Source of the DNA: Sphaerisporangium rufum
Lineage (GTDB): Bacteria; Actinomycetota; Actinomycetes; Streptosporangiales; Streptosporangiaceae
Assembly: GCF_016863395.1 (NCBI RefSeq)
Contig: NZ_BOOU01000013.1
Location: forward strand, 62,001-126,000
Reading direction: 5' to 3'
Length of the DNA stretch: 64,000 bases
Position 1 is the stretch's first letter. Every line of letters begins with the position of its first letter. The notes under the pieces were generated by a model. The model did no database searches. It saw only the letters and a list, made by a program, of their open reading frames with translations, and was not told the origin of the DNA. This document shows positions 10,606 through 54,095 of the stretch, one piece after another. Position numbers and translations under genes: made by a program.

Positions 10606-10646
10606 GAGGTTAGCGGTGGCCTCGCGGGGGCAGGCAGTCCACCGAG

Positions 10647-11328: not shown

Positions 11329-11338
11329 CCGCCGCCAC

Positions 11339-11462
11339 CCGACCCGGCCACCTGACCGCGATCACCTGACCGCGACCGCGTGACGGCGGCCGCCTGTTCG
11401 TGAGCTCCTGACCGTGAGCGCCTGCTCGTGAGCGCCTGCCGGCGAGCGGCCGACCGTGACCA
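11339..11462. repeat. Degenerate 14-bp tandem repeats between convergent genes
   Basis: Units at 11399, 11413 and 11427 read CGTGAGC(T/G)CCTG(A/C)(C/T) with few changes, followed by a decayed unit at 11441. Less regular CCTGACCGCG copies precede them from 11351. The array fills the spacer between two converging genes. Confidence 0.7.
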
Positions 11463-11502
11463 CCGCGCGGCGCCGTACTCGAGGGTACGGCCGGACGCCG
11501 CC

Positions 11503-12351
11503 TCAGGGCAGGGTGAGGATCTCGCTGCCGCCGTCGGTCACCACGATGGTGTGCTCGAACTGGGCGGTGCGCCGGCCGTCCCGGGTGACCGCGGTCCAGC
11601 CGTCCGGCCACAGGTCGTACTCGACGGTGCCGAGCGTGAGCATCGGCTCGATGGTGAAGGTCATGCCCGGCACCAGCTCCACCGCCAGCGACGGGTCGTC
11701 GTAGTGCGGCACGATCAGCCCGGAGTGGAACGAGGTCGAGATGCCGTGTCCGGTGAAGTCGCGCACCACGCCGTACCCGAACCGCTTGGCGTAGGCGGAG
11801 ATGACCCGCCCGACGACGTTGAGCCGGCGGCCCGGCGCCACCGCGCGGATCGCCCGCATGGTGGCCTCGCGGGTACGTTCCACCAGCAGCCGCGACTCCT
11901 CGTCCACCTCGCCCACCAGGAAGGTGGCGTCGGTGTCGCCGTGCACCCCGCCGATGTAGGCGGTGATGTCCACGTTGACGATGTCGCCGTCGCGCAGCAC
12001 GGTGTCGTCCGGGATGCCGTGGCAGATCACCTCGTTGATCGAGGTGCACAGGGACTTGGGATAACCCCGGTAGCCGAGGGTGGAGGGGTAGGCGCCGTGG
12101 TCGCAGAGGAACTCGTGGCCGATCCGGTCGAGCTCGTCGGTCGTCACGCCGGGCGCGACGTGCCGGCCGACCTCCTCCAGCGCCTGGGCCGCCAGCCGCC
12201 CGGCCACCCGCATGCGCTCGATCGTCTCGGGCGTCTGCACGTCGGAGCCGCCGCGGCGGGGCTCCTTGCGGCCGACGTACTCCGGACGCTCGATGTGGGC
12301 GGGGACCTTGCGCATGGGGGACACCCGTCCCGGCCGGAGCAGTGTGGTCAT
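11503..12351 (-). CDS. map: Methionine aminopeptidase, type I
   Basis: 282 residues. It removes the initiator methionine from nascent proteins. All five metal ligands of the pita-bread fold are visible: Asp in VNVDIT, Asp in HGDTDATF, His in FTGHGIS, Glu in FTIEPM and Glu in FEHTIVV. The N-terminal extension of about 45 residues ([16 protein letters not shown]) is the Pro-rich arm of the longer actinobacterial MetAP1c. ATG 12351 is chosen. The upstream site is weak and the transcript may be nearly leaderless. Confidence 0.96.
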
Positions 12352-35094: not shown

Positions 35095-37995
35095 ATGATC
35101 GATGGCGGGCCGGCCGGGGCCGGCCGGGTCCCGGTGGCGGGGCCGGAGCCGGTCGGGCGGGCCGGCGAGCTGGCGCGGATCGAGGCGGCCGTCGCCGGCG
35201 CGGCGGCGGGCGGCCGCGGCCTGGTCCTGATCGACGGCGAGCCGGGAGTGGGCAAGACCCGGCTGCTCGGATATCTCGTCGAGCGGGCACGCGCCGCCGG
35301 GCACGCCGTGCTGGCCGGGGGCGCCACCGAGTTCGAGCGCCTGGTCCCGTTCGGGATGTACGTGGACGCCTTCACCCGGCTGTCGGACGAGTACGGCCCG
35401 TCCGGCGGCGCGGCGGCGGGCACCGGGCCCGGCGGGCTGGCGGAGGCGGCGCTGGACACCCTGCTGTCGGCGGGCCGGGCCGGCCAGGCGGGCGACACCG
35501 AGCGCGGGCGGCTGGACCGTTACCACACCTACCGCGGCATCCGGGCGCTGCTCGCCCACCTGGCGGCCGGCCGGGGCGCGGTGCTCGTGCTCGACGACCT
35601 GCACTGGGCGGACGACCCGTCGCTCGAGCTGACCGAGTTCCTGCTGCGCCGGCCGCCGGCCGCCGGCTTCCTGATGGCGATCGCCTGCCGCTCGGCCATG
35701 ATCCCGCCGGTGGTGGCCGACGCCGCCCGGGCGGACGCGCACGTCGTCCGGCTCGGCCTGGCGCCGCTGGACGAGGACGCGGCCGACCTGCTGATGCCGC
35801 CGGAGACCGGCCCGGCCCGCCGCCGGCTGATGTACCGGGCCAGCGGCGGGAACCCGCTGTTCCTGCGGGCGCTGCGGGACGCCGACGACCCCACGCTGGC
35901 CGAGCTGGCCGAGGGCCGCCCCGGTGCCGCGCCCGCCCTGGAGCGGACGCTGCTGGCGGTGCTGCGCCGCGAGCTGGACCGCCTCACCCCGGCCGGCCGG
36001 CGGGCCGCGCACGCGGCGGCGGTCGCGGGCGAGCTGGCCTCACCCGTGGTGATCTCGCAGGTCGCCGAGCTGGAGCCCGCCGCGGCCGCCGCGGCGGTGG
36101 ACGAGCTGTGCCGGTACGGCCTCGGCGCGCTGGCCGGCACCCGGTTCGCCTTCCGCCATCCGCTGCTGCGCGCCGCCGCCTACGACACGTGCGGGGCCGG
36201 CTGGCGCGTCGCGGCGCACGCCCGTATCGCCGGCCACCTGCGCCGCAACGGCGGATCGCTGGCCCTGCTCGCCCACCACACCGAGCGGTACGCCGAGCCG
36301 GGGGACGAGCGGGCCGCCCGGACGCTGGGCGAGGCCGGCGTCGCGTCCCTGGACTCGGCGCCGGCCACCGCGGTGCGCCTGCTCCGCGAGGCCCTGCGGG
36401 TGCTGCCCGACCGGGACGACCTGATGCCCTACCGCGCGCACCTGCTCACCGGCCTGTCCCGCGGCACCGGCGTGATGGGTTCGCTGACCGAGAGCCGGCG
36501 CATCCTGCACCAGGTCATCGACCTGCCGCTCGACGTGTCCTCGGCCGCGGTCGCCTTCTCCTCGGTGATCTCCCGGCTGCTCGGCCGGCTGGACGAGGCC
36601 CGGGCGCTGCTCAGCGCGCAGGCCGGCCGGGCCGGGCTGGACCTCAAGGTGCGCAGCCAGCTGCTGGTGGAGCTCGCCGCAGTGGCGACGCTGCGCGCCG
36701 ACCCGGCCGAGGTGCGCCGGTACGCGCTGGAGGCCGCCGAGGTGACCGCGCGCACCGGCGACGCGGCGCTCGGCTGCGCGGCGCAGGCGCTGCTGGCGCT
36801 GGCCTGCCTGCAGGACGGTGACGTGGCCGCGGCGCGCGCGCACGCCACGCGCGCCGGCTGGCTGATGGACGGCGCGCCGGACGCCGCGCTGGTCCGGCAC
36901 GTCGAGCTGGTCGCGCCGCTCGCCTGGAGCGAGACCTGCCTGGGCCGGGTGGCCGAGGCCGCGCGCCACCTGCAGCGGGGCATCGACCTGGCGACGATGT
37001 CCGGCCGCAGCTACGCGATGCCCTACCTGCTGATCGGCCAGGCGCGGTGCCTGGCCCGCGCCGGCCGGCTGGCCGAGGCCATCGAGGCCGCCGAGCACGC
37101 CGTGGCGGCGTCGGAGTACATCAAGAGCAGCGAGACCCTCGCGATGGCCCGCGGCGTCATGCTGCTGCCCGTGCTGTGGCGGCACGGCGCGCGGCCGGCC
37201 GTGGCGCTGGCCGGCCAGGTCGCCGCGTCCGGCCCCGGCTCGGCCTGGTGGCGGGCGATGGCGAACGTGTCGGTGGCCCGGGTACGGCTCGCCGCGGGCG
37301 GCGCCGGGCCGGGGGAGGTGCCGCCGCTGCCGGACCCGCTGTCCCGGGATACCGAGGTCGAGCGGCTCGCGGTGGAGTCGATCCGGGCCGGCGCCGGCGG
37401 CGACACCGGGACGGCGCTCGGCCGGGCCGCGGCGGCGGTGGCCGCGGCAGCCGGCGGCACCGCCTACGATCTGGGCACCGCCCACGACGCCCGCGCCCGC
37501 GCGCTGTGCGGGAGCGACGACCTGGCCGGGGCCGCGGCGGCCGCCCGGACCGCCGCCGGGCACTTCGCCGAGTGCGGCGCCGTCGTCGAGCGCGGCCTGG
37601 CCCACCAGCTGCTGGCCACCGTGCACGACCGGACGGGCGACCTTCCGGCGTGCCGCGACGCGATCGCCCAGGCCAAGGCCGCCTACCGCGAGTCGGGCGC
37701 CGACTGGCTGGCCGGCCGGCTGGTCCGGGCGGAGCGGCGGCTGGCCGCGCGCGGGCCCCGGCAGCCGGCGGGCACGGCCGCCGGCTCGCCGGCGCTGACC
37801 GCCCGGGAACGCGAGGTGGCCGCCCTGGTCGGCCAGGGGCTGACCAACCGCGAGGTGGCCGAGCGCCTGCGGCTCAGCCGCAAGACGGTGGAGACCCACG
37901 TGGCCAGCATCTTTAGCAAGTTGGACGTCCGCTCCCGGGTGGCGCTCGCCCGGCGGCTGGCCGGCCAGGGCGACATCCCGGTCCCGGGCGGTTGA
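35095..37995 (+). CDS. LAL-type LuxR regulator with AAA/STAND ATPase
   Basis: 966 residues, ATG 35095 with GGAGG 5 nt upstream. Residues 19-250 form an ATPase: Walker A GEPGVGKT at 48-55, Walker B VLVLDDLHWADD. Residues 250-880 are a long helical, TPR-like region. The C-terminal 65 residues are a LuxR HTH (LTAREREVAALVGQGLTNRE, then LSRKTVETHVASIFSKLDV). This MalT-like LAL family commonly activates catabolic or antibiotic clusters in actinomycetes. No obvious target cluster adjoins it. Ends at a perfect 16-bp hairpin. Confidence 0.93.
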   Translation: MIDGGPAGAGRVPVAGPEPVGRAGELARIEAAVAGAAAGGRGLVLIDGEPGVGKTRLLGYLVERARAAGHAVLAGGATEFERLVPFGMYVDAFTRLSDEYGPSGGAAAGTGPGGLAEAALDTLLSAGRAGQAGDTERGRLDRYHTYRGIRALLAHLAAGRGAVLVLDDLHWADDPSLELTEFLLRRPPAAGFLMAIACRSAMIPPVVADAARADAHVVRLGLAPLDEDAADLLMPPETGPARRRLMYRASGGNPLFLRALRDADDPTLAELAEGRPGAAPALERTLLAVLRRELDRLTPAGRRAAHAAAVAGELASPVVISQVAELEPAAAAAAVDELCRYGLGALAGTRFAFRHPLLRAAAYDTCGAGWRVAAHARIAGHLRRNGGSLALLAHHTERYAEPGDERAARTLGEAGVASLDSAPATAVRLLREALRVLPDRDDLMPYRAHLLTGLSRGTGVMGSLTESRRILHQVIDLPLDVSSAAVAFSSVISRLLGRLDEARALLSAQAGRAGLDLKVRSQLLVELAAVATLRADPAEVRRYALEAAEVTARTGDAALGCAAQALLALACLQDGDVAAARAHATRAGWLMDGAPDAALVRHVELVAPLAWSETCLGRVAEAARHLQRGIDLATMSGRSYAMPYLLIGQARCLARAGRLAEAIEAAEHAVAASEYIKSSETLAMARGVMLLPVLWRHGARPAVALAGQVAASGPGSAWWRAMANVSVARVRLAAGGAGPGEVPPLPDPLSRDTEVERLAVESIRAGAGGDTGTALGRAAAAVAAAAGGTAYDLGTAHDARARALCGSDDLAGAAAAARTAAGHFAECGAVVERGLAHQLLATVHDRTGDLPACRDAIAQAKAAYRESGADWLAGRLVRAERRLAARGPRQPAGTAAGSPALTAREREVAALVGQGLTNREVAERLRLSRKTVETHVASIFSKLDVRSRVALARRLAGQGDIPVPGG

Positions 37996-41443: not shown

Positions 41444-43255
41444 TCACCAGGGCAGGCCGCGCAGCAGCAGGGCCGCGCGGACGCCGAGCAGCGCCAGCGC
41501 GGCCACTCCGATCACGGTGGAGGCGGCGAACACCGCCCACCGGAACAGCCGGTAGCTCACCGGTGCCAGCGTCGCCGGCCGGCGGCGGGGCGCCCACGGG
41601 CCGCGCAGGTCGGTGGTGGTCAGCCCGCTCTCGCCGTCCTCGCCCTGCCGGTCGTCCTGCCGGTCGTCCTGCCGGCCGTCGCGGTCAACGCCGGCCTCCG
41701 GCAGGGCCGGCGCGGCGCCGGTGCCCGGCGCGGCCGGCTCGGGCACCGGCAGGCCGGTGAGCCAGGCGAGCAGCCGGCCGATGGCCGGGTCGTCGGGCGG
41801 CAGCCCGGAGGCCAGGTAGCGTACCTCGGCCGCCGTCTTGGCCAGGTCGCGGGCCATGTTGCCCAGCCCCACGCCGTCGAACCAGCCCGGCAGCTCGCCG
41901 GCCCCGCTGCCCACGCTGGTCCGCAGCAGCAGATCGGCCTTGGTGACCACCACGGCCACCCGCTGCTGCCGGCCGCCGTCGGAGCGGGCGGCCAGCTCGT
42001 TGCGGACCCGCTGGAAGGTGTCGGCCGGGTCCTCCGGCGAGAACACCACCCCGGCGGCCGCCAGGTCGTCCCGCTCGGCCGGGGTGAGGGCCCGCCGCAC
42101 CAGCGGCAGCGCGAAGGGGTCCACCACGATGAGCATCGCCTCGCCGTGCGCCAGGTAGCTCATCTCCTCGACCCGCGAGGCGCCGGTGTAGCTCTCCCCG
42201 GCCGGGTCGAACAGGTAGATGATGCGGTCACCGTCCCGGGCGCCCGGCATGGTGACGTCGATCATCGTGGCGGACGGCGCCGGGGTCGTGGTCTTGGCCA
42301 CCCGGCCGTGCCGCAGCTCCCGGCGCAGCCGGGCGAAGGCGATCTCGTCCCCCTCCACGACGAACCCGGCCCGCCCGCGCGCCGCTCGCACCACGCCGTG
42401 CAGCGCGTTGATGGCCAGCACCATGAACGTCGTCTTGCCCGCGTCCGGGCCGCCGACAAAGGGCAGCGGCTCGATCCGGGCGCGGCCGATCCGGTGCGGC
42501 AGCACCCGGCCGCACTCCGGGCAGTAGGCGCGCAGCCGGAAGCGGCCGAGCACGATCGCGGTGGGCAGCCGGGTGCCGCACCGGCACACGTGCCGGAACG
42601 CCCCGTCGAGGTTCGGGGCCAGATGGCGGTGCCGCAGGTCACAGGTGGGGCAGGCGTACTCCGGCAGCGCGATGCGCGCGTAGCACTGCGGGTGCGGGCA
42701 GGTCTGCAGGATGCGCCGCACCAGCATGACGGCCTCCTCCACGCCGCGCAGCAACCCGGCGCAGGCCAGCCAGGCCAGCATCCCGGTCGCGGTGACCAGC
42801 GCCCAGGCCAGCGTGAACGCGGCGGCGACCAGCCCGACCGGGACGACGGCCAGCGCCATCCCGGTGACGACGGCCAGCCACAGCGGCAGCAGGAACAGCC
42901 CCTGCAGGTTGCCCATCAGCCACCGCGTCACCCTGGCCAGGATCGACCGGGCGGCGGCCAGCGCGGACGGCACCGCGAGCCGGACCGTCCGCCACCAGTC
43001 CAGCGGGGCCTGCGCGAACGCGTAGTGGCGGTACACCGGGTCGCGGCCCGGCCCGGCGGCGGCGGGCACGGTGGGGGAGGCGCCGGCCGCGCCGGCCGGC
43101 AGCAGCACCCGGGCGGCCCGGGTGAACCAGTGCACGGCCCCGGCCAGGGTGGCGGCGACCAGCGTGGCCGCGCACAGCACCGGGAACCCGTAGCGGAACC
43201 CGAAGTACATGCAGCCGCCCCACACCACCAGGCCGACCACGAAGACGAACGGCAT
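41444..43255 (-). CDS. Membrane zinc-ribbon GTPase (double-GTPase 2-like), last gene of the Hsp70/GTPase operon
   Basis: 603 residues. Two N-terminal membrane helices (2-45), two or three more at about 110-180, then a Cys-rich zinc-ribbon block (about 185-245) with CPHPQC, CPTC, CRC and CPEC. A TRAFAC-type GTPase follows: G1 GGPDAGKT near residue 267, a G3-like FDPAGESY and G4 VVTKAD. An Asp/Arg/Gln-rich linker contains a small DRQD repeat, and one or two C-terminal membrane helices follow. The start overlaps the GAP1-like stop by one base (TGATG). The DO-GTPase2 family name is from memory; the motifs are direct. Confidence 0.82.
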   Translation of the reverse strand: MPFVFVVGLVVWGGCMYFGFRYGFPVLCAATLVAATLAGAVHWFTRAARVLLPAGAAGASPTVPAAAGPGRDPVYRHYAFAQAPLDWWRTVRLAVPSALAAARSILARVTRWLMGNLQGLFLLPLWLAVVTGMALAVVPVGLVAAAFTLAWALVTATGMLAWLACAGLLRGVEEAVMLVRRILQTCPHPQCYARIALPEYACPTCDLRHRHLAPNLDGAFRHVCRCGTRLPTAIVLGRFRLRAYCPECGRVLPHRIGRARIEPLPFVGGPDAGKTTFMVLAINALHGVVRAARGRAGFVVEGDEIAFARLRRELRHGRVAKTTTPAPSATMIDVTMPGARDGDRIIYLFDPAGESYTGASRVEEMSYLAHGEAMLIVVDPFALPLVRRALTPAERDDLAAAGVVFSPEDPADTFQRVRNELAARSDGGRQQRVAVVVTKADLLLRTSVGSGAGELPGWFDGVGLGNMARDLAKTAAEVRYLASGLPPDDPAIGRLLAWLTGLPVPEPAAPGTGAAPALPEAGVDRDGRQDDRQDDRQGEDGESGLTTTDLRGPWAPRRRPATLAPVSYRLFRWAVFAASTVIGVAALALLGVRAALLLRGLPW

Positions 43256-45876
43256 CAGCGGGCCTCCGGGTGCACGGCACCCTCGCCCCGGGCCAGCTCG
43301 CGGGCGGCGGCGGCCAGCCGCTCGTCCCGGCGCGCCCAGGCCGGCGGCCGGCCGAACGGCCCGGACAGCCGGGACCTGGCCCAGCCGGCCAGCTCGGCCG
43401 GCAGCGGGACGCCCGCCAGGTGCAGCAGCAGCGCCACCTCCAGCAGCGCGCCGGCCTCCTCGCGGGTGCCCGCGGCGGCCAGCCAGTCGCCGGCCAGCCG
43501 GGCACGGCCGGCATCGGGCAGCGCGCCGGCCACGTCGGCCCGCCGGGCCGGTGCCTCGCCGGCCAGGGTGCGGGCGGCGAGCGTGGCGGCCTCCCGCGAC
43601 ACCTCCTCGTCGGCCTCGCGCTCCAGCGCGTACAGCCGGGCCAGCAGCTCCGCCGCCTCGGCGGCGCTCGCCGCCGCCGGCAGGGCGGCCGCCAGCAGGA
43701 CCGCCTCGGCGTCCCGGGCCGGGTAGCCCGGCACCAGGGCGGCGACCCGCTTCGCCAGCCGCACGCAGCCGGGGTCGGCGACGCCGGCCGCGCGGAACGC
43801 GCGGGCCGGCAGGTCGCGCAGCCGGGGGGAGACGTCCAGTGCCGCGCCCAGCAGCTCGACCAGCTCGGCGCACTCCGCCGGCGCCGGCGGCTCTCGCCAC
43901 ACCTCCTCCAGCGCCGCGTCCAGCGTCTCGCCCGGCTCCCGGCCACCGGCCGCGCCGGGTGCGTCCCCGGCGGGATCAGGTATCCCGTCCGGCCCTGGGG
44001 CGCCGGACGTCGTGCCGGGGGAGTCCCCGGCCGGGTCTGGTGTCGCGCCCGGTCCTGGGACGCCCGTGACGTCGGCGCCCATTACCTCATCCTGGTCAGC
44101 GCGGACGTCGCGGTTCGCGCGCTCCCGCCGGCCGGTGGGCTCGCCGGGTGACTTCCCGGTGGTGTCCGGTGCCGGGCCCGGGCCGGGGACGCCCGCGAGC
44201 TCGCCGGGTGTGCCCCCGGTGGTGTCCGGTGTCCGGCCCGGCCACAAAGGCCGGTTCCCGGCGGTGATCCCGGGCCCGGCCGCCGGGCCCTTCGTGGCGG
44301 TGGCGGCGGCCAGGTCCAGCAGGCGGGCGGTGGCGGCGGGGCGGCCGAGCAGGCCGTGCCGCACCTGGGCCAGGACCAGCGACAGCGCGGTGCGCGGCGC
44401 CGCCGACAGGTCCGCGCCGGCCAGCCGGCGCACCGCGGCCGCCGGCAGGCCGTCGCGGACGTGGTCGGGCGCCTCCTCCAGGCCGGGCACCGCCCCGGCC
44501 AGCACCGCCGCGCGTGCCTCGTCGGGCACGGTGTCCAGCAGCCGGCCGAGGTCGCCGCGGCCGGCCCGGACCAGCGCCCGGGTCGCCGACGCCAGCAGCC
44601 CGGCGTCCACCGGGGCGTGCACCGCCCGGGCGGTGCGCAGCACCGCGGCCAGCTCGCCGAGGTCGCCGGCGGCGGCCAGCGCCCGATCGGCCTCGGCGCC
44701 GAGCCGGGCGCGGACCTCGGCCGACCGGGCCGGCGCGGGCGCGGGCAGGCCGGTGTCGCGCAGGGCCAGCACCGCGCACCGGGCGGCGTAGGCATCGTCG
44801 GCGCCCGGCGGCGCCACCGCGCGGGCGGCGGACGCCAGCTCGTACCCCATCCGGCCGGCCGCGGCGGCCAGGTCGTCCCACACCTCGCCGGGCAGGTCGG
44901 CGCGCAGCGCCCGCGCGACGGCCGCCTCCTCCGCGGCGGTCACGCTCGGGTCGCCCCGGCAGAAGGCCAGCAGCGCCGCCCAGGTGTCCGGGCCGGGGGC
45001 GGCACGGCCGCCGTCCGGGGCGGGCAGCGCGGCCAGCTCGCCGAGCGCGTCCAGGCCGGCCAGGTCCAGCTGGCGCCAGCAGTCGGCCGTGGTGCGGGCG
45101 AACCGGCCGGGCGGCGGGCCGGGCGGGTGCGGCTCGGCGAGCCGCACCACCTCGTCGTCGGTGCCGGCCGGCAGCCAGCAGTCCGGGGTGGTGCCCACCA
45201 GCGGCTGCGCCGCCGCCGCCGGATCTCCGCTGTAGGTGGCGAACGCCAGCCGCGCCGCCGCCGGCCAGGGCAGCGAGAACGAGACCACCGCCAGCCACCG
45301 GACGATCTCCTCGACCTCCGCCGACACCAGCACCACCCGCCCGTGCCCGCGGGCCAGCACGCCGCCGACCGCGTCCAGCAGCAGCGCCAGCCGCCGGTAG
45401 GCCGGCTCGCCGCCGGCCGCCAGCCAGCCGGCCAGCGACTCGGGGTCGGTGCCGTCGCCGGGCGGCAGGTCGTCCAGCTCGGCCAGCTCGGTGCCCGGCG
45501 GCGCCGGCTCGGCCGCCCACAGCGGGGAGCGCCACATCTCCACCGGCCGCAGGCCGGTCAGCTCGTCCGCCTCGGCGACCACCGCGTGGCCGAGGAAGTT
45601 GCCGTACCGGCCCGAATAGTCGCGACCCAGGTACACGCACCGGGTGAGCAGGCACCACCGGCCGTCCAGCACCTCGTAGGCCAGCGCCACCGGGAAGTCC
45701 GCGAGCTGCTCGCCGGTCGGCGCCAGCGGCGCGCCGGGCGGCGGCCGGTAGGCCAGCCGGGCGGCGACCTGCCCGGCCAGGCCGGGCGGCAGGCCGGGGG
45801 AGGCGGCGACCACCTGGAACCCGGCCCGCCCGTCCGGCCCGCCGGCCGCCGAGGTGTAGTGCAGCTGCCAGGCCAC
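43255..45876 (-). CDS. GTPase-associated protein 1 (GAP1)-like
   Basis: 873 residues, GTG 45876 with GGAGG 8 nt upstream. The N-terminus (LHYTSAAGGPDGRAGFQVVA, then CVYLGRDYSGRYGNFLGHAV) matches what I know of the GAP1-N2 domain found beside double-GTPase genes. The middle and C-terminal parts are long helical repeats. A low-complexity Pro/Gly/Thr linker (about 535-650), with repeats like PDTTGKSPGE and PDPAGDSPG, separates them. No enzymatic motif is visible. It is probably an adaptor or regulator of the two GTPases flanking it. Confidence 0.8.
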   Translation of the reverse strand: MAWQLHYTSAAGGPDGRAGFQVVAASPGLPPGLAGQVAARLAYRPPPGAPLAPTGEQLADFPVALAYEVLDGRWCLLTRCVYLGRDYSGRYGNFLGHAVVAEADELTGLRPVEMWRSPLWAAEPAPPGTELAELDDLPPGDGTDPESLAGWLAAGGEPAYRRLALLLDAVGGVLARGHGRVVLVSAEVEEIVRWLAVVSFSLPWPAAARLAFATYSGDPAAAAQPLVGTTPDCWLPAGTDDEVVRLAEPHPPGPPPGRFARTTADCWRQLDLAGLDALGELAALPAPDGGRAAPGPDTWAALLAFCRGDPSVTAAEEAAVARALRADLPGEVWDDLAAAAGRMGYELASAARAVAPPGADDAYAARCAVLALRDTGLPAPAPARSAEVRARLGAEADRALAAAGDLGELAAVLRTARAVHAPVDAGLLASATRALVRAGRGDLGRLLDTVPDEARAAVLAGAVPGLEEAPDHVRDGLPAAAVRRLAGADLSAAPRTALSLVLAQVRHGLLGRPAATARLLDLAAATATKGPAAGPGITAGNRPLWPGRTPDTTGGTPGELAGVPGPGPAPDTTGKSPGEPTGRRERANRDVRADQDEVMGADVTGVPGPGATPDPAGDSPGTTSGAPGPDGIPDPAGDAPGAAGGREPGETLDAALEEVWREPPAPAECAELVELLGAALDVSPRLRDLPARAFRAAGVADPGCVRLAKRVAALVPGYPARDAEAVLLAAALPAAASAAEAAELLARLYALEREADEEVSREAATLAARTLAGEAPARRADVAGALPDAGRARLAGDWLAAAGTREEAGALLEVALLLHLAGVPLPAELAGWARSRLSGPFGRPPAWARRDERLAAAARELARGEGAVHPEAR

Positions 45877-45895
45877 TACGCCATCCTCCGCCCGG

Positions 45896-47065
45896 TCACC
45901 CGCGCACCCCGCGGATCATGCCGAACCGGTACAGCAGCCACAGCAGCGGATCTTCCACCCGGTACGGGCGGATACCACCAGGGCTGACCTCGTCCGCGGC
46001 CGGGATCTCGCCCAGCGCCGACAGGCCGAACAGCCCGAAGTCGGTGAAGTGCTGGCGCAGGTAGCGGTCCACCATCGCCGCCTGCCACTCCTCCAGCAGC
46101 GCCCGCACCTGCTCGTGCACCGCCTCCCGGTCGTCCAGGTCCAGCGTGCCGGACGGGGTGCGGGCGCGGTGCAGCGCCGAGCGGGCGTCCATGCCCTCGC
46201 GCAGCGCGTCGATCTTGCTGATCGCCACCGCGACCGGCACCTTCAGCCGCCCCGAGCCGGACCGGTCGCGCAGCAGCTCGGTGACCCGGCTGATGACGTT
46301 GATCGGGTCGCTGTCGGGGTCGGCGGCGTTCACCCCGCCGCGCGCCCGGGCCGGGCCGCTCAGCGCCGGCTTCGCGCCGGGCAGCTCCAGCGGGTCCAGC
46401 AGGAAGATGATGGCGTCCGCCGCGTTCAGGTAGCGCAGGTGGGTCTCGGTCGACTCGCGGCTGCGCAGGTCCTCGCCCGCGGTGTCGAACAGCACCAGGG
46501 TCAGCGACACCGTCCGGCTGCGCAGCCGGCCCGGCACGGTGCGGGTCAGCAGGTACACCAGCGGGTCGCGCGGCTCGGCGGCGGCCGGCTGGGTGGTGGC
46601 CAGCAGCCGGTGTTCCCCGTACAGCGGGCGGGCGAAGTCCCGCTTGTACCGGGCGATCGTCCGGTCGTCGCAGGCCACCAGCGAGGCGTCCAGCTCCGCC
46701 CCCACCCGGTTGGTCAGCTCGTGCAGCAGCACCGCGATGTAGGTGCTCTTGCCGGCGCCCTTCGCCCCCACCAGCGCGACGATCTTGCCGGGGTTGGCGC
46801 AGTACTCGGCGGGCAGCCGGTTGTGGCACTCCGGGCAGGCCCGCCAGCCGGTGGAGTGCCCGCAGTACGGGCAGTCGGCGCGGCGGCCCGGCCGGCGCAC
46901 CGAGAACACCGGCGGCAGCGAGGCGGCGGCCGGCGAGCCCAGGTAGCGGGCCAGGGTCTCGTCCAGCTCGGCCTCGCAGCCGCCGCGCCCCGGGCGGCCC
47001 GCGCAGCGGAACGCGATCCGGCCGCGGTCCAGCCGGGCGAAGCAGAACGGGCAGGTGATGAGCAC
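45896..47065 (-). CDS. Cytosolic zinc-ribbon GTPase (double-GTPase-like)
   Basis: 389 residues, GTG 47065, only 6 bases after the preceding gene's stop. Two Cys pairs open the protein (CPFC at 5-8, later C-x8-C) and a further ribbon CPYC...CPEC lies at 65-80. The GTPase begins directly after: G1 GAKGAGKS at 100-107, G3 FDTAGED, G4 ISKID. There is no membrane segment. It probably pairs with the membrane GTPase two genes downstream. Residues after the G4 motif (GLFGLSALGEIP) resemble a G5 region. Confidence 0.85.
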   Translation of the reverse strand: MLITCPFCFARLDRGRIAFRCAGRPGRGGCEAELDETLARYLGSPAAASLPPVFSVRRPGRRADCPYCGHSTGWRACPECHNRLPAEYCANPGKIVALVGAKGAGKSTYIAVLLHELTNRVGAELDASLVACDDRTIARYKRDFARPLYGEHRLLATTQPAAAEPRDPLVYLLTRTVPGRLRSRTVSLTLVLFDTAGEDLRSRESTETHLRYLNAADAIIFLLDPLELPGAKPALSGPARARGGVNAADPDSDPINVISRVTELLRDRSGSGRLKVPVAVAISKIDALREGMDARSALHRARTPSGTLDLDDREAVHEQVRALLEEWQAAMVDRYLRQHFTDFGLFGLSALGEIPAADEVSPGGIRPYRVEDPLLWLLYRFGMIRGVRG

Positions 47066-47071
47066 GGGATT

Positions 47072-49633
47072 TCAGTCCACCTTCAGCCGCCGCACCGGCG
47101 GGTCGATCAGGGCCACCTCGCCGCCGGGCCCGGCGACGCCGTCCTCGGGCCCCTCGGCGAAGCAGCGCAGCCAGTAAGGCCGCTCCTGGCGCGGCGCCGG
47201 CACGGTCAGCCGGGCGGGCACCTCCAGGTCGGTCCACGCGTCGAGCAGCACGCCGTCGCCGGGGGAGGTCGGCTGCACGTGCCCCGGCTTGAGCACCAGC
47301 GCCAGCCGGCGCAGCCGCACCGGGCGGTCCGCGGTCACCTCGACGACCACCGAGCGCCGCCAGGCCGGCCCCTGCCGGACCAGGTCGTAGCGCACCGGGA
47401 CGTGCCCGGGCAGCCGCAGCGCCGCGGCCGGGCCGCGTACCCGGGTGCCGCGGATCATCGAGGCCGGCGCCACCTCGATGGCCACCGGCGCGCCCTCGGG
47501 GACGTCCAGCCGCACCCCGCCCTGCGCCCGGTAGGCCGCCGCGCTGACGATCATGTGCTGCCCGTTCCACCGCACCTCGACCTCCGGCACGTCCGGCGGC
47601 CAGGTGAACCCCAGGTACACCGTGGCCCCGCGGCGCTGGGCGGTCAGGCCGCCCGGCGGCGGCAGGTTCACGTGCTGCACGTGCGCGCCCACGGTGGCCA
47701 GCTCGCCGGCCACCGTCACCGCCAGCAGCACGCTCTCCCCGGACCGGGGGCGCACCGCCTGCCCGTCCCGGGTGGGCACCGCGGGGATCGGCCGGGTGGC
47801 GGCGCGCAGCTCGCCCACCGACAGGGTGGTGCCCGGCGGCCAGCCGGGCGGCCCGTCCAGCGCCACGATCTCCACCGTGCCGGCCGGCGGCTGGTCGTAG
47901 CGGGCCAGGAAGGTGCCCGGCGCTGACGCGTCCGGGGTCAGGGTGAGCGACGGCACCGGGGCCGGCCGCCCGCGCGGGGTGACGCTGCGCCGCACCCCCG
48001 GGGTGAGCACCTCGCCGTCCGGCACCGGGTACGCCGCGGCCACCACGTAGACGTGGGTGGCCCCGTTCACCACCCCGGTGTCGCGGAACCCGGCCCCGTC
48101 GGTGGGCAGCGGCACCCCGTCCCGGGTCACCACCACCCGGGACGCCTCGGCCGGCGCCGTCCACCGGCCCGACACCACGCCGTCCCCGGCCACCAGCGCG
48201 ACGTCGGCGGGTTCCGGCCGGACCACCACCGCGGTGGCCGCCGCCGGCATCGCCACGGCCTCCTCCCGCCGGGCCACCACCGAGTACACCAGCGGCACGT
48301 TCACCGGCGGCCGCTCGTCGCGCGCCGACGGCCGCTCGGTCGTCACCAGCGGCGTGCCGTTGCGGTACACCTCGTACACGATGCGGCCGGCCCGCGACGG
48401 CGACGGCTGCCAGGACACCGCCACCTCGCCGTCCTGTGCCTCCGCCCGCGGCGAGCGCGCCGGGTACGGGGCCAGCCGGGCCATCAGCTCCCGGGCGCCC
48501 GGCAGGTCGGGCACCCGCTGCAGCGCGTCGCGCAGCGCCAGCCACGCGTCGTCGGGGTCAAGGGCGGCCCGGGCCCGGTCGCGCAGCCGGGTCGCCCGGG
48601 CCAGCCGGCCGCGCACCTCGGTGGCCAGCGCCGCCGCCTCGCCGGCCAGCGCCCCCGGGTCCAGCGCGGCGGCGAAGTCCGCGGCGGCGTGCACCTGGCC
48701 GGTGTCGATCAGCTCGCGCAGCCGGGCCGCCGCCCCGCCGCCGGCGCCGCCCTCGGCGCGCACCGCGAACACCAGCCGGCGCGCGTCACCCGGCGCCAGG
48801 TCCAGCTCGGTCGTCGCGTGCCGCAGCAGGCTCCCCTCCCGGGGATGCTCGCGCAGCCGCTCGCGCAGCCGCGACACCACGTCGTACCTGATCATCGCCG
48901 CCGGGTCGGCGGCGTGCAGCGCGGCCAGCACGGTGTCGGCGCTGATGGTCCACGGCCCGCGCGCCCGGGCCGCCCAGCGCTGCTCGGCCGCCGCCAGCGC
49001 CTCGGGCACCGGCGCGGCGCCCGGCACCGTGAAGCCGTCCAGCACCCGCATCCCGGCGCAGCGGTCCCCGAACAGGAACCGGCCCAGGTGCGGCAGGCCG
49101 AGGGTGTCCAGCGCCTCCCGGACCTTGCCGAACCCCGGGTAGGGCGAGGCCTCCGGCAGCGCGTCCGGCTCGCGCACCTCGATCGACCGCTCGGCGGCCA
49201 GGGACAGCGCCTCGTCCTGGCCGATGCCGCACGAGCGGGCGATCGTCGCCAGCAGCGCCGGGGACAGCAGCCGCAGCGCCCCGGCGGCGTCGTCCAGCCG
49301 GCCGAGCGCCTCGTCCAGCCGGCGGGCCGCCCGGTCCTCCGACTCGCCGAGTGCGGCCAGCAGCGGGCGCAGGTCGCCCTCCGCCGCCGCGGTGAAGATC
49401 GGTGCGAACCGGGCGTGGTCCGCCTCCAGCCGGTCGGCCAGCCGCTTGTAGCGCAGCATGCCGCGGGCGCGCCGCCAGCAGCGGCGCACCTGCCGGACCG
49501 TCTCGGTCACCTCGGCCGCGTCCATGCCCTCGCGGAGCTGGTAGCGCGCCCGCAGGTCCTCCGGCGGGACGCCGCCCGCCTCCCGCGCGGGCTCCAGCAC
49601 CTCCCGGGTGTACAGCCGCTCGTCGAAGGGCAT
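47072..49633 (-). CDS. Large helical plus beta-sandwich protein of the Hsp70/GTPase operon
   Basis: 853 residues, starting 12 bases after the Hsp70 stop. Residues 1-390 are helical; segment 25-85 (LRARYQLREGMDAAEVTETV, then CWRRARG) vaguely resembles a J-domain-like helical pair but has no HPD. From about 390 on come tandem beta-sandwich modules with fibronectin-III character (VAVSWQPSPSRAGRIVYEVY, GRWTAPAEASRVVVTRDGVP). There is no signal peptide, so these modules are cytosolic. It may be the client-binding or scaffold part of the system. Confidence 0.75.
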   Translation of the reverse strand: MPFDERLYTREVLEPAREAGGVPPEDLRARYQLREGMDAAEVTETVRQVRRCWRRARGMLRYKRLADRLEADHARFAPIFTAAAEGDLRPLLAALGESEDRAARRLDEALGRLDDAAGALRLLSPALLATIARSCGIGQDEALSLAAERSIEVREPDALPEASPYPGFGKVREALDTLGLPHLGRFLFGDRCAGMRVLDGFTVPGAAPVPEALAAAEQRWAARARGPWTISADTVLAALHAADPAAMIRYDVVSRLRERLREHPREGSLLRHATTELDLAPGDARRLVFAVRAEGGAGGGAAARLRELIDTGQVHAAADFAAALDPGALAGEAAALATEVRGRLARATRLRDRARAALDPDDAWLALRDALQRVPDLPGARELMARLAPYPARSPRAEAQDGEVAVSWQPSPSRAGRIVYEVYRNGTPLVTTERPSARDERPPVNVPLVYSVVARREEAVAMPAAATAVVVRPEPADVALVAGDGVVSGRWTAPAEASRVVVTRDGVPLPTDGAGFRDTGVVNGATHVYVVAAAYPVPDGEVLTPGVRRSVTPRGRPAPVPSLTLTPDASAPGTFLARYDQPPAGTVEIVALDGPPGWPPGTTLSVGELRAATRPIPAVPTRDGQAVRPRSGESVLLAVTVAGELATVGAHVQHVNLPPPGGLTAQRRGATVYLGFTWPPDVPEVEVRWNGQHMIVSAAAYRAQGGVRLDVPEGAPVAIEVAPASMIRGTRVRGPAAALRLPGHVPVRYDLVRQGPAWRRSVVVEVTADRPVRLRRLALVLKPGHVQPTSPGDGVLLDAWTDLEVPARLTVPAPRQERPYWLRCFAEGPEDGVAGPGGEVALIDPPVRRLKVD

Positions 49634-49645
49634 CCGGCCGCCCGG

Positions 49646-51229
49646 CTAGCTGACCTGGACGCGGGACAGGGCGGCCCGGGACTCGGCCACCTCCTCCTCC
49701 GACATGCCGCCGATCTGCACCCGCAGCTCCAGCTCCTCGCCGGTCTCCCGCTCGCGCGAGGTGACCTGCAGCAGCCCGGAGGCGTCCAGCGCGAAGGTCA
49801 CCTCGATCGGCCAGCCGGCCGGCTTGCCCGCCGGGATCTTCAGCACCCCCTCGGCGATCACGGCGTTGTCCTCCTGCTCCTCCGACTCCACCGCGCCGGC
49901 CTGCTCCATCACCTCGATGCTCACCCCGGTCTGCCCGGAGTCGATGGTGTAGAAGTCCTGGGTCACCGCGGCGGGCAGCGCGTCGTTGGCGTGCACCAGG
50001 TGCTCCACCGAGCGCCGCCGGGTCTCCTTGTCGGTGACCACGATGCCGAACCCGCGGGAGGCCACCGTGCGGATCGTCCGGCCGGCGATGTGCCGCTTCT
50101 GGTCGGCCGAGATGCCCGCCCGGTCCGCCAGGTCCTCCGCCTGCTCCTCCTCGCCCGCCGTCAGCAGCCGCCGGTAGGTCTCCTCGAACGCGTACAGCGC
50201 CGCGCCCTTGGCGACCGCCAGGTCCGGGTCCTGCAACCGGGGGACCAGCTCGAACTCCTTCTGCAGCGCCTCGGCCACCGCGGGCATCTTGGTGGAACCG
50301 CCCACCAGCACCAGGTGGTCGTAGGCCTCCACCCCCTTGCCCGCGGCGGTGTCCATCGTGCGCCGGGTGATCTCCACCGTGCGGTCCAGCAGGTCGCGGG
50401 TCAGGTCGGCCAGCGCGTCGCGGGTCAGCTCCACGGTGGCCACCCGGCCCTCGTGCATCACCCGCACGACGTGCTGGGTGCGGGTGGACAGCGTCTTCTT
50501 CAGCTCCTCGGCGTCCCGGCGCAGCTGCTGCTCGGTCTGCTTGTCCAGCAGCGGGTCGCCCGCGTCCGGGTGCTCGGCCTGGAACCGCTCGGCCAGGTGC
50601 TCCACCAGCCGGTCGTCCCAGTCGGCGCCGCCGAGCTCGTGGTCGCCGTCGGTGCACACCACCTCGATGTCGCCGGCGCTCAGCCGGATCACCGTGGTGT
50701 CGAAGGTGCCGCCGCCCAGGTCGTACACCAGGATCGTGTGGTCCTGCCCCGGGTTCAGCACCCCGTAGGTGATCGCCGCGGCGATCGGCTCGGACACCAC
50801 GTCGATGACGTTCAGCCCGGCGATGTGCCCGGCCTTGCGGGTCGCGTCCCGCTCGGCCGCGCCGAAGTACGCCGGGACGGTGATGACCACGTCCTCCACC
50901 GGGTCGCCGGTCGCGGTGCGCGCGTCCTCGGCCAGCTTGCGCAGGATGAACGCCGAGATTTCCTCCGGCGTGTACGGCCGGTCGTGCCGGACCCGGGGCA
51001 CGTCGTGCCCCATGTCGCGCTTGATCCGGCTGACCACCAGGTCCGGCTCCAGCACCGCGCTGTCCTTGGCGGTGGCGCCCACCACCACGTTGTCCGGCGA
51101 CTCGAAGAACACCACCGACGGCGTGGTGTCGGCGCCCTCCAGGTTGCGCAGCACCGTCGGCCGCCCGACTTCGTCGACACTGGCGATGCAGGAGTACGTG
51201 GTGCCCAGGTCGATCCCGTAAACAGCCAT
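49646..51229 (-). CDS. Hsp70-family chaperone, short form
   Basis: 527 residues, against about 600-640 for DnaK. The ATPase domain is complete: phosphate-1 GIDLGTTYS, ITVPAYFGAAERDATRKAG, phosphate-2 DLGGGTFDTTV and adenosine motif VGGSTKMPAV. A charged insert (EEEQAEDLADRAG) and RTIRTVASRGFGIVV replace the usual hydrophobic DVLLLDV linker. A beta-sandwich peptide-binding-like domain follows (YTIDSGQTGVSIEVMEQAG to LLQVTSRERETGEELELRV), and the chain ends where the helical lid would begin. It starts 3 bases after the GrpE-like stop. It is a dedicated operon copy, not the housekeeping DnaK. Confidence 0.92.
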   Translation of the reverse strand: MAVYGIDLGTTYSCIASVDEVGRPTVLRNLEGADTTPSVVFFESPDNVVVGATAKDSAVLEPDLVVSRIKRDMGHDVPRVRHDRPYTPEEISAFILRKLAEDARTATGDPVEDVVITVPAYFGAAERDATRKAGHIAGLNVIDVVSEPIAAAITYGVLNPGQDHTILVYDLGGGTFDTTVIRLSAGDIEVVCTDGDHELGGADWDDRLVEHLAERFQAEHPDAGDPLLDKQTEQQLRRDAEELKKTLSTRTQHVVRVMHEGRVATVELTRDALADLTRDLLDRTVEITRRTMDTAAGKGVEAYDHLVLVGGSTKMPAVAEALQKEFELVPRLQDPDLAVAKGAALYAFEETYRRLLTAGEEEQAEDLADRAGISADQKRHIAGRTIRTVASRGFGIVVTDKETRRRSVEHLVHANDALPAAVTQDFYTIDSGQTGVSIEVMEQAGAVESEEQEDNAVIAEGVLKIPAGKPAGWPIEVTFALDASGLLQVTSRERETGEELELRVQIGGMSEEEVAESRAALSRVQVS

Positions 51230-51232
51230 CGG

Positions 51233-52396
51233 TTAATCGCTCTCCTCGTCCTTGTCGCCGACCCCGCCGCCGCCCGCCTCCGCAGGCGCGGCCCGCCCCC
51301 CAACGTCCTGCCGCCCGACGTCCGGCGCCGCCCGGGACGCCTTCCGCTCGGCCACCGCCCGCCCCTTGCCGGGCGTCCCGCCTGCCGCCGCCGGCGCGTC
51401 ACCGCCACCACTCGCCTTCGCGTCCGGCTTGCCGCCCGCCGCGCCGGCCTTCTCGGCCGGACCGTCGACTACGGCGTCCGGCTTGCCGCCGGCGGCGTCC
51501 GCTTTCTCGTCTGGTTCCTTGCCGGCGGCGCCCGCGTTCTTATCCGGCTTGTCGCCGGCGGCCTCCGACTTCCCATCCCGGCCACCGCCGGGGGCCTTCG
51601 CGGTCCGCGCCTTCACCGCCGGGCCGCCGGATGGCGGAGTGGTCGTGGTGGCGTTCTTCTCCGGCGGGCCGCCGGCCGGCTTCGCCGCCGCGCTCGCCCT
51701 GTCCGCCGGAGCGGTGGTCCTGGCGCCGCCGGTGTCGCCGCTCGCCGGCCGCGGGGGCGCCGGACCGTCCTTCCGGCCGGACGGCACGGGAGAACGAGGG
51801 CCGCCGGCGGCGGCAGCGCGGCCGACGATCACCGATGCCTTGCGCAGCGTCCGCTCGCCGGAGGCGAAGCCTTCGGCGACCACCCGGACCACGGTGCCAT
51901 CGGACTCCGGCGCCACCTGCTCAGTGCCGGCCGGCCGGTGCCGGGCCGCGTCGTAGGCGTCGCCCGCCGCCACCGCGAGCCGCTCGGCGCCGGTGCGGCC
52001 GAGCACCTCGGCCACCTCGTCGGCGATCGCGGCCAGCAGCGGACCGGCCAGGCCCGCCTCCGGCGGCTCCGGCGACGACCAGCGCGCCGCCTCGCGGGCG
52101 ACCGTGTCGTGCAGGCGGTACAGGGCGGCCCGCACCGGGGTCAGCGCCTCCTCCAGCAGGCCGCGCCGCAGCGTCTGGGACTCGGCGTGCAGCCGGTCGA
52201 TCACCTGCTCGCGGTGCGCGGCCCGCTCGTGCTCGCGCCCGGCCGCCGCGGCGACGGCGCCGACCTGCCCGGCCAGCTCGTCGATCCGTTCCCGGAGGCG
52301 GTCCACCGCACCGGACAGGTCGGCTCCGCCCGGGAGAGGCGAGGGTGCCGCCGCTGCGGAGGCAGGCTCACGCGGCTCGGCTGGGGGAGACGCCAT
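51233..52396 (-). CDS. GrpE-like coiled-coil protein with long low-complexity tail
   Basis: 387 residues, ATG 52396 with GAGGAG 3 nt upstream; first gene of the operon. Residues 25-95 form a charged coiled coil (LRERIDELAGQVGAV, ALYRLHDTVAREAARW), and 120-190 resemble the GrpE beta-wing end (YDAARHRPAGTEQVAPESDG then VVRVVAEGF), the part that opens the Hsp70 nucleotide cleft. From about residue 195 an Ala/Gly/Lys/Pro-rich tail has degenerate GGKPDA repeats and an acidic end. Position before Hsp70 fits a nucleotide-exchange factor. Confidence 0.82.
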   Translation of the reverse strand: MASPPAEPREPASAAAAPSPLPGGADLSGAVDRLRERIDELAGQVGAVAAAAGREHERAAHREQVIDRLHAESQTLRRGLLEEALTPVRAALYRLHDTVAREAARWSSPEPPEAGLAGPLLAAIADEVAEVLGRTGAERLAVAAGDAYDAARHRPAGTEQVAPESDGTVVRVVAEGFASGERTLRKASVIVGRAAAAGGPRSPVPSGRKDGPAPPRPASGDTGGARTTAPADRASAAAKPAGGPPEKNATTTTPPSGGPAVKARTAKAPGGGRDGKSEAAGDKPDKNAGAAGKEPDEKADAAGGKPDAVVDGPAEKAGAAGGKPDAKASGGGDAPAAAGGTPGKGRAVAERKASRAAPDVGRQDVGGRAAPAEAGGGGVGDKDEESD

Positions 52397-52930
52397 CTTC
52401 TCCTCGTGCGGAAAATACGGGGATTCTGTCGCAGGTAACTCTAGCCATCAATGGCGGCGCCCGGTAGAGATTCAGCTGTCCGATAATAAGCTATTTGTCG
52501 GGATTCCCGGCGCCTTTCCGGCGACCCGCCCGCCCGGCGTCCACCCCAGCAAACCCCGCTGACCAGCCCGTTCCCGCCCGGCGCCCGGCTCCGGCGCCAC
52601 CCTCGCCCTCGGTGGCCGCGGAGAAAGATCGCATCCGATCGCATCCACCGGCGTCGGACCTGTCGACCCGAAAATGGGAGCCCTTACCCCTCTTCAAGCC
52701 GTTTACGGTGTGTCCCGTTAATAGTCCAGAATGTCACCAATGCGCCACTGGTGTCACTCAGGTACCCACAAATCGCACCGCGCCACCGGCCCACCCCGTT
52801 CCCTGCCGCCAGAAAGAGGCAGGAGCCGTCGGGACCGCGTCGTGCCGGGCCACTCGCCCGGCACGACGACATGTCCACTATGCGGCCTCGATCGGACCAC
52901 CACGAGTAGGGCGCCCCGCTGGAGCGGGGG
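52397..52930. other. Control region of the Hsp70/GTPase operon and spacer
   Basis: 534 bases with no supported gene. On the minus strand TTGATG (52446-52451), 17 bases, CAGAAT (52423-52428) is a possible promoter 27 bases before the GrpE-like gene, but it is weak. CACCA-N9-TGGTG at 52735-52753 is a small inverted repeat. No HrcA/CIRCE or HAIR-type heat-shock element was seen. Confidence 0.45.
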
Positions 52931-53116
52931 TCAGCGCTCCTTGATGGTGGCGAGGAAGTCGCGCCATTCGGCACGGGAAACGCGCAGGTGGCCGCCGGTG
53001 CGGCGCTTGCTGTCCCGCACGGCGATGCTGTCGGGGAATTCGGCGACTTCTACGCAGTTGCCGCCATTGCCGCTGGTGTAACTGGAAGTACGCCAGTGCG
53101 CCTGGGTCAGGTCCAT
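52931..53116 (-). CDS. DUF397 protein, second tandem copy
   Basis: 61 residues starting MDLTQAHWRTSSYTSG, with NCVEVAEFPDSIAVRDSK. It is closely similar to the preceding 64-residue gene, so the two arose by tandem duplication. The start overlaps that gene's end by 10 bases. Confidence 0.9.
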   Translation of the reverse strand: MDLTQAHWRTSSYTSGNGGNCVEVAEFPDSIAVRDSKRRTGGHLRVSRAEWRDFLATIKER

Positions 53117-53301
53117 GCCTGCTCCTTGATGGTGATGAGGAAGTCGTGCCATTCGGTTCGGGAAATGCGCAGGTGGCCGCCGGTGGGGCGCTTGCTGTCG
53201 CGGACGGCGATGGCATCGGGCAGCGTGGCGACCTGCACGCAGTCACCGCCGTTACCGCTGCTGTAGGAGGAGGTCCGCCAGTGTGCGTTGGTCAGGTCCA
53301 T
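53107..53301 (-). CDS. DUF397 protein, first tandem copy
   Basis: 64 residues starting MDLTNAHWRTSSYSSG, with DCVQVATLPDAIAVRDSK. It overlaps the DUF5753 regulator by 10 bases at its start and the second DUF397 gene by 10 bases at its end, in each case through the shared string ATGGACCTGA. Confidence 0.92.
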   Translation of the reverse strand: MDLTNAHWRTSSYSSGNGGDCVQVATLPDAIAVRDSKRPTGGHLRISRTEWHDFLITIKEQAWT

Positions 53302-54095
53302 GTCTCGGTCACCTCGGTCATCAGCTCGATCGACTGCTTACCTGGCAACGCCTCGGCCCGCACCGCCTCCCAGAGCCGCCGCATGGTGGCGACGTCCTCC
53401 GCGCGCTCGACGACGGATCCGCAGAGCGCGCCGTCCACGTACGCGACCTCACGGTTGCCGATGGTGGCGACGACGAATGGCCCGGCCATTCCAGCGTAGG
53501 TACCGACGGCGGCCGGCACAATCTGGATGACGATCCGTGGCCGCCGGGTAAGTGCCAGCAGGTGGCCGATCTGCTCACGCATCACCTCCGGCCCGCCGAC
53601 CGGGCGATGTAGCAACCCTTCGTCCAGCACCGCGACCAGCATCGGCGGATCCGGCCGGTCCAGCACCCGGCGTCGCTCCCGCCGGGCTTGGACCTGCTCA
53701 TCCTCGTCGAGATCTCTTCCCGACGCCGCGATCACCTCGCGGGCGTACTCGTCTGTCTGCAGCAAGCCAGGAACGAGCAGCGGCTCGTAAGACAGGAGAC
53801 TGGTCGCCTGGGCCTCGATCGTCAGCCAGCGGCCGACCCACTCCGGGGGCATGGTGCGGCAGACCAGGTCTTCGGTCAGCCGGGTGAGCAGGCCGCCGGT
53901 GGTGAGCAGGTCGTCGCACCTGCGCGCGAAGTCGGGCCTGGGCGTCCGCCGGGCGGTCTCGACCATGGCGACGAACGACGGCGAATAGCCCGCCATCGCC
54001 GTGGCGAGTTGCGCCTGGCTCATGCCCGCCGCCTCCCGGGCCTGCCGGAGCTCCCGGGCGAAGAATTCCAGTGGCGTCATGGTGTTACCGTTCAC
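53292..54095 (-). CDS. XRE-type HTH regulator with DUF5753 domain
   Basis: 267 residues. HTH REAAGMSQAQLATAMAGYSP, DUF5753 core LLSYEPLLVPGLLQTDEYAR and IVIQIVPAAVGTYAGMAGPF, ending TWT. GTG 54095 follows GAGGG and is preferred over ATG 54080. It forms one transcription unit with two DUF397 genes. A divergent anti-sigma-type ATPase starts 133 bases away, an arrangement common in actinomycetes for these developmental/regulatory sets. Confidence 0.92.
   Translation of the reverse strand: MNGNTMTPLEFFARELRQAREAAGMSQAQLATAMAGYSPSFVAMVETARRTPRPDFARRCDDLLTTGGLLTRLTEDLVCRTMPPEWVGRWLTIEAQATSLLSYEPLLVPGLLQTDEYAREVIAASGRDLDEDEQVQARRERRRVLDRPDPPMLVAVLDEGLLHRPVGGPEVMREQIGHLLALTRRPRIVIQIVPAAVGTYAGMAGPFVVATIGNREVAYVDGALCGSVVERAEDVATMRRLWEAVRAEALPGKQSIELMTEVTETWT

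Follow-up and report, generated by a model that had tools for sequence, protein, structure and literature searches.

The stretch of DNA analysed here, hereinafter the window, comprises 64,000 nucleotides of contig NZ_BOOU01000013.1 of Sphaerisporangium rufum and is part of a 7.8 Mb genome. At positions 41444-52396, on the minus strand, the window contains six tightly spaced genes that encode, in the order of transcription, a GrpE-like protein, an Hsp70, a protein of 853 amino acids, a soluble zinc-ribbon GTPase, a GAP1 protein and a membrane zinc-ribbon GTPase. The open reading frames and their translations bear out the strand, number and spacing of the genes given in a first-pass annotation of this DNA, namely, intergenic gaps of 3, 12, 6 and 19 bases followed by a 1-base overlap. 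When Pfam matches over the curated gathering cut-offs are counted, five of the six proteins are matched, with bit scores of 31.1 for GrpE, 357.4 for HSP70, 39.2 and 79.4 for DO-GTPase2, and 133.5 and 69.4 for GAP1-N2 and GAP1-M, respectively (the cut-off for the last two being 24), in agreement with the annotation's assignment of the GrpE, Hsp70, zinc-ribbon GTPase and GAP1 proteins and of the GAP1 and double-GTPase families. The exception is the 853-amino acid protein. As far as the literature covered extends, it is a new observation that the Hsp70s of this system keep the catalytic lysine and glutamate and never have the arginine that contacts J-domain proteins. The features of the operon are as follows.

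51233..52396, minus strand: GrpE-like nucleotide exchange factor, 387 amino acids (PF01025, 31.1 bits against a cut-off of 25.8, residues 122-192)
49646..51229, minus strand: lidless Hsp70, 527 amino acids, consisting of the nucleotide-binding domain and the beta part of the substrate domain, without the alpha lid (Pfam, alignments)
50801..50803, minus strand: codon of Hsp70 Asp143, at the place of DnaK Arg167, the contact of the J-domain HPD motif (alignment; role of Arg167 from PMC7289447)
50042..50080, minus strand: Hsp70 residues 384-396, TIRTVASRGFGI, where ordinary DnaK has the LLLDVTPLSLG linker (alignment)
47072..49633, minus strand: 853-amino acid protein, helical at 1-390 and with tandem fibronectin type III (FNIII) domains at 393-850, a predicted adaptor or sensor (model, Foldseek)
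45896..47065, minus strand: soluble DO-GTPase2, 389 amino acids, GTG start, with two N-terminal sets of zinc-ribbon cysteines (Pfam, alignment)
43255..45876, minus strand: GAP1-N2 and GAP1-M protein, 873 amino acids, GTG start, C-terminal half helical (Pfam, model)
41444..43255, minus strand: membrane DO-GTPase2, 603 amino acids, with hydrophobic N-terminal stretches and one C-terminal stretch, and eight invariant zinc-ribbon cysteines (Pfam, alignment, hydropathy)
52397..52500, minus strand: leader directly 5' of the first gene, the probable promoter region of the operon (alignment of 10 sequences)

The operon is a member of the HSP70/GrpE theme of the GAP1-N2 GTPase-centric systems, in which HSP70, GrpE, an FNIII protein, DO-GTPases and GAP1-N2 are combined; this is one of the three GAP1-N2 themes described by Kaur et al. 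(2020, PMC7159879). According to the part of that paper that was available, the HSP70 and GrpE genes occur in about 14% of the GAP1-N2 systems, the FNIII protein typically carries a DnaJ or TPR fusion, and the whole class was predicted to comprise conflict systems from gene-neighbourhood and phyletic patterns; in the open-access literature, we found no experiments on this class. Thus, the first-pass annotation was right in regarding the GAP1 and DO-GTPase families as known but missed the HSP70/GrpE theme of the same 2020 paper. The operon shares with this theme the HSP70, GrpE, FNIII protein, zinc-ribbon DO-GTPase and GAP1-N2/GAP1-M components as well as a second DO-GTPase that has membrane segments at both termini. 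It differs in that no DnaJ was found on the FNIII protein and the TPR signal is weak, TPR_16 being detected in one of 21 FNIII proteins (E 0.018), with the model of the window protein helical at 301-385; because either DnaJ or TPR is given as typical, the absence of a DnaJ fusion alone does not exclude membership. A further difference lies in the operon Hsp70, which has no lid and is without the Arg167 and linker features; the available part of the paper does not mention these. The tubulin and kinase themes (PMC7159879, the same part) also include GAP1-N2, DO-GTPases and FNIII, but there tubulin or kinase, phosphatase and vWA genes replace the Hsp70 module, and Pfam detects none of these in the operon.

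The alignment of the operon-type Hsp70s consists of 28 rows from two phyla, two of which represent the same Dictyobacter gene, so that 27 are distinct; 22 rows are free of a fusion to the vWA domain and six are vWA-fused, with the vWA domain shown by Pfam in the five distinct fused genes. The catalytic lysine and glutamate, K70 and E171 in the numbering of E. coli DnaK, are kept in all 28 rows. By contrast, none of the rows has arginine at the place of Arg167, which is occupied by Asp in 15 rows, Glu in five, Lys in four, Gln in two, and Asn and Gly in one each. The residue is thus acidic in 20 of the 28 rows, being Asp in 15 of the 17 actinomycete rows and Glu in each of the five lidless rows from Chloroflexota. 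In all 22 rows without vWA, the linker aspartate (D393) is replaced with Thr or Asn, most of the actinomycete rows having a sequence of the TVASRxFG type at the place of the linker, and the alpha lid is absent, these proteins extending 0-2 residues past the end of the window protein, compared with 102 and 127 residues for the two ordinary DnaKs of the genome. Among the control DnaKs, for which the loci with the highest PF00012 scores in this genome and relatives were taken, the arginine is present in 31 of 31 and the linker pattern is matched by 28 of 31; among the lower-scoring Hsp70 relatives, the arginine was inspected only in those of loci L132 and L133.

In the available part of a study of the J-domain contact (PMC7289447), J-domain proteins are termed obligatory Hsp70 cochaperones, the HPD residues face Arg167, and alteration of the Arg167 contact network disturbs the coupling of the domains, somewhat raises the basal activity and renders the J-protein ineffective; R167D was modelled by the same authors. 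What was available of another study (PMC6843406) counts both Arg167 and D393 among the allosteric residues and gives LLLD as the sequence of the conserved linker. Among the titles and opening lines of abstracts listed for the literature on these Hsp70 features, none was about the present lineage. Compared with the DnaK/GrpE/DnaJ system, the operon has in common the Hsp70 ATPase residues and a GrpE-like exchange factor, and it differs in that no J-protein was found, Arg167 is replaced, and the LLLD linker and the lid are missing. Because the J-contact arginine, the LLLD linker and the lid are absent, the operon Hsp70 is unlikely to be an ordinary loader of clients onto the membrane GTPase, the role that the first-pass annotation had proposed for it. 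The same losses argue against a spare general chaperone, that is, a third DnaK/GrpE pair that adjoins the GTPase genes by accident. The clear Hsp70 and GrpE domains speak for this possibility, but the order of the operon is conserved across genera, and two ordinary DnaK/GrpE/DnaJ clusters sit on other contigs of the genome, so that the operon Hsp70/GrpE set is a dedicated one; we consider the accidental pair highly improbable.

The search for a J-domain that might serve this Hsp70 gave consistently negative results. Pfam detected no DnaJ in 21 FNIII proteins, in the five FNIII proteins from Chloroflexota or among the proteins of the window, and comparison of the FNIII protein with two and then 27 J domains by hhalign was negative as well. 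The profile of the 27 J domains found none in the window, in 15 Chloroflexota loci or in 44 loci, where the matches were three controls only (L090, L092 and L133), all of them part of the profile; the three DnaJ matches of the genome lie on other contigs. After these Pfam, hhalign and J-profile results, a J-domain in the FNIII protein was rejected, and the operon may at most encode a very divergent J-like domain. A different operon was observed in another family of the order at L133 (G038:C105:2000-14637, positions 6158-12223), with a partial twin in L132. It encodes a protein with a degenerate J-domain (NPD for HPD) and TPR, a short GrpE, an FtsK/SpoIIIE-like ATPase and a short Hsp70 of 507 amino acids in which the arginine is kept; this is a second short-Hsp70 system.

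The 853-residue protein, which has no Pfam family match, had been described in the first-pass annotation as helical with beta sandwiches, and its AlphaFold2 model (mean predicted local distance difference test score, pLDDT, of 88; predicted template modelling score, pTM, of 0.38) has the same composition, with helices up to about residue 390 followed by beta sandwiches. In Foldseek, the model matches FNIII repeat proteins, and there is a weak profile match of the sequence to FNIII chains. On visual inspection, the helices at residues 27-84 look like a J-domain that lacks HPD, which is an impression only. At L074 (8070-9977), the FNIII protein has only 635 amino acids, with a stretch rich in Pro, Thr and Ala in place of several sandwiches. 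The GAP1 protein is modelled (pLDDT 81, pTM 0.56) with an alpha/beta N-terminal part followed by helices, and includes a low-confidence stretch at about 532-643 and a single marginal hydrophobic stretch at 808-827. Up to E 1, GAP1-C (PF20052) has no match in this protein, though the C-terminal half is modelled as helical; the GAP1 protein of L050 matches GAP1-C at 274.8 bits. A known GAP fold was tried as a candidate for GAP1 and rejected, with none of 688 Foldseek matches reaching E 0.001 and no sequence match to a solved structure up to E 1. In an Actinoallomurus locus (L076, 11146-12411), the GAP1 frame ends early, at 421 amino acids, which is either an assembly error or real.

The nucleotide-binding motifs are intact in both GTPases, as they are in Hsp70. 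In the alignments, which contain 21 rows each, K106, the D194-G197-E198 set and K284/D286 of the soluble GTPase are invariant, and the motifs GxxxxGKS, DTAGED and [ST]K[IV]D are kept; seven of its eight zinc-ribbon cysteines are invariant and the eighth is present in 90% or more of the rows. In the membrane GTPase, the motifs GGPxAGK[ST]T, DPxGE and [ST]KxD are kept and all eight zinc-ribbon cysteines are invariant. For both proteins, these are the P-loop, DxxGE and [ST]KxD motifs, and the glutamate that follows the Walker B aspartate (E198 in the soluble and E354 in the membrane GTPase) is invariant in each alignment. By hydropathy only, the hydrophobic stretches of the membrane GTPase lie at about 1-44, 113-169 and 570-602, of which the two N-terminal ones can be read as two putative helices each, four in all. 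The GrpE-like protein has a C-terminal tail of low complexity that differs among the species in an alignment of 22 sequences. The leader, in an alignment of 10 sequences, resembles itself across the seven genus members and is unlike in the three outsiders; a promoter scan gave no promoter-like sites and a terminator scan two sites against 0.9 expected, such scans being uninformative in a GC-rich actinomycete.

GAP1-N2 and the 853-amino acid protein are present in all 11 Sphaerisporangium genomes examined, and the six genes occur in order in each of the 10 genus genomes other than S. rufum. A scan of genomes with the soluble GTPase gave 24 loci, 19 of which contain all six genes, as detected by tblastn, in one order and on one strand; the exceptions include three loci cut by contig ends (L067, L069 and L070) and the divergent Dictyobacter locus L078. 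The genera with loci include Planobispora, Acrocarpospora, Sinosporangium, Actinoallomurus, Actinomadura, Nonomuraea and Streptosporangium. Among 20 loci fetched by GAP1-N2, at least six of which are the same places as loci of the 24-locus set, 14 carry all six genes, five have four or fewer genes found, and the remaining one, L050, has an Hsp70-like stretch inside the FNIII open frame. Across loci, the GrpE-Hsp70 and Hsp70-FNIII junctions are mostly within 20 bases; in the genus, gaps reach 338 bases for GAP1 and the membrane GTPase, the starts of which were picked by a script. A rough estimate of the ratio of nonsynonymous to synonymous substitution rates (dN/dS), obtained by the Nei-Gojobori method with the Jukes-Cantor correction for the window against six Sphaerisporangium loci, is 0.18 for the soluble GTPase, 0.22 for Hsp70, 0.34 for FNIII, 0.45 for the membrane GTPase, 0.60 for GAP1 and 0.62 for GrpE. 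Given the conserved order and strand and the dN/dS values of 0.18-0.62 for the six genes, the arrangement of the operon is not due to chance. The view of the six genes as a single system, as originally put forward, is supported by the homologues in other genera, which adjoin one another in the same order.

Within the family, the distribution outside the genus is patchy. In the sample of the phylum, GAP1-N2 is rare, being found in 8 of 396 genomes (S. rufum included), and it was detected in four of the 26 members of the family searched outside the genus and in 11 of 301 Chloroflexota. An Hsp70 of the lidless lineage together with an FNIII gene is present in five of 15 Chloroflexota loci (L153, L154, L155, L156 and L163); L156 is a short contig, and the other four additionally encode GrpE and a further Hsp70, the latter fused to vWA. 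In L078, L153-L155 and L163, the vWA-fused Hsp70 lies beside a DO-GTPase or the lidless Hsp70, and the FNIII proteins carry a double zinc ribbon.

A role in anti-phage defence or in another kind of conflict would be in line with the patchiness at the family level and with what was predicted from gene neighbourhoods and phyletic patterns (PMC7159879, the available part); assembly of a membrane complex would then contain or kill the infected cell, as Kaur et al. proposed for the class. Several observations argue against this possibility, which we regard as rather doubtful. The system is present in 11 of 11 genus genomes, and the glutamine synthetase gene is located downstream of the operon in nine of the 10 other ones, the contig of the tenth ending about 3 kb past the operon; the same gene is also downstream in Planobispora and in four of five Acrocarpospora loci; in G026, no copy was detected within about 22 kb beyond the operon. 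Upstream, the flanks of the window and of G003 are unlike those of other genus members. Pfam matched 17 of the 20 flanking frames that were scanned, and these 17 are genes of metabolism, transport or regulation or DUF genes. The PADLOC defence annotation was rejected as an explanation: it consists only of a weak mad8 match, to the P-loop of the soluble GTPase, and a weak BrxA match, to Hsp70. By Pfam, the operon has no known effector domain. Finally, a search of 50,697 phage records with the soluble GTPase gave no match, and among 72,556 plasmid records two matched, both from Rhodococcus, at about 29% identity. Because the chromosomal place is fixed in the genus and the soluble GTPase is nearly absent from the phage and plasmid records, an inherited trait fits better than a mobile defence island.

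The conserved place in the genus and the purifying selection, along with the membrane GTPase itself, would also suit a chaperone-GTPase complex that is constitutive and serves to build or repair a membrane structure in hyphal growth or sporulation. In what was available of PMC11237479, a DO-GTPase beside the PSP operon was predicted to function in membrane stress, and at L077 (13417-15540), in Nonomuraea, the membrane GTPase has a long C-terminal extension past the last hydrophobic segment that is perhaps extracytoplasmic. However, there is no envelope or division gene in the operon and GAP1-N2 is missing from 22 of the 26 members of the family that were searched beyond the genus, so such an envelope or morphogenesis machine seems to us distinctly unlikely.

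The scenario that we favour, tentatively and as something a little short of probable, is a membrane-linked GTPase switch with its own Hsp70, most likely used as a stably inherited switch for membrane stress or infection and not as a general folding machine. In this scenario, the membrane GTPase would pair with the soluble GTPase at the inner face of the membrane, GAP1 would bind the GTPase pair and read its GTP state, and the helical/FNIII protein would be an adaptor or sensor arm. The lidless Hsp70 would be recycled by its own GrpE and would not be driven by an HPD J-domain; conceivably, it functions as an ATP-gated clamp that either keeps the complex in check or permits its assembly, so that the two nucleotide cycles would jointly set the assembly threshold. 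The output may serve defence or envelope stress, and an inherited immune role is conceivable. We count in favour of the switch the Pfam domains, the conserved gene order, the replacements in Hsp70 and its missing lid, the negative searches for a J-domain, the dedicated Hsp70/GrpE set and the motifs kept in both GTPases, as well as the joint presence of an Hsp70-like stretch and an FNIII part in one open frame of L050, a 'fusion' that rests on this one frame, with a partial Hsp70 match and an uncertain start codon. An AAA_2 ATPase gene precedes that frame (L050, 8775-13060, minus strand). As a further, rather unlikely step, the Hsp70 lineage might have left J-domain control altogether, with the charge reversed at the place of the HPD-receiving arginine and its partner aspartate in the linker lost from the lidless rows, and handed the trigger of hydrolysis to the GTPase/GAP1/FNIII complex, which would make it a GTPase-gated Hsp70.

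A number of points weigh against the switch. Pfam detects no known effector domain among the operon proteins. That GAP1 would read the GTP state is taken from the prediction of Kaur et al., as GAP1 has no solved-structure match at E 0.001. The uncoupling from J-domains is not clear for the vWA-fused branch of Hsp70, because all four lysines at the arginine place belong to vWA-fused rows and the linker aspartate is kept in all six of them. FNIII repeats are termed rapidly evolving (Kaur et al. 2020, PMC7159879, in the available part), but GAP1 and GrpE evolve fastest here, not the FNIII protein. The correlation of the pairwise distances of the six proteins, with r of 0.78-0.98 over 15 gene pairs, speaks for the switch but would follow from shared descent alone. 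Lastly, L079, from Streptosporangium saharense, is complete except for GrpE, which is not detectable, and contains other sequence upstream of Hsp70 (before 5753).

If the switch is real, an Hsp70 lineage with intact ATPase residues and without the J-contact arginine, found in two bacterial phyla beside GTPases of one family, would illustrate the way in which Hsp70 can be repurposed as a signalling switch and would provide a tangible starting point for work on this predicted class of bacterial conflict systems.

Further genes flank the operon in the window. Upstream, at 52931-54095 on the minus strand, Pfam identifies two DUF397 genes and an HTH/DUF5753 regulator, which were rejected as a part of the system, their matches occurring in two of 44 loci, at other places. 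Between the operon and the glutamine synthetase gene, the plus strand (35095-37995) encodes an AAA_16 and LuxR-type regulator of 966 amino acids.

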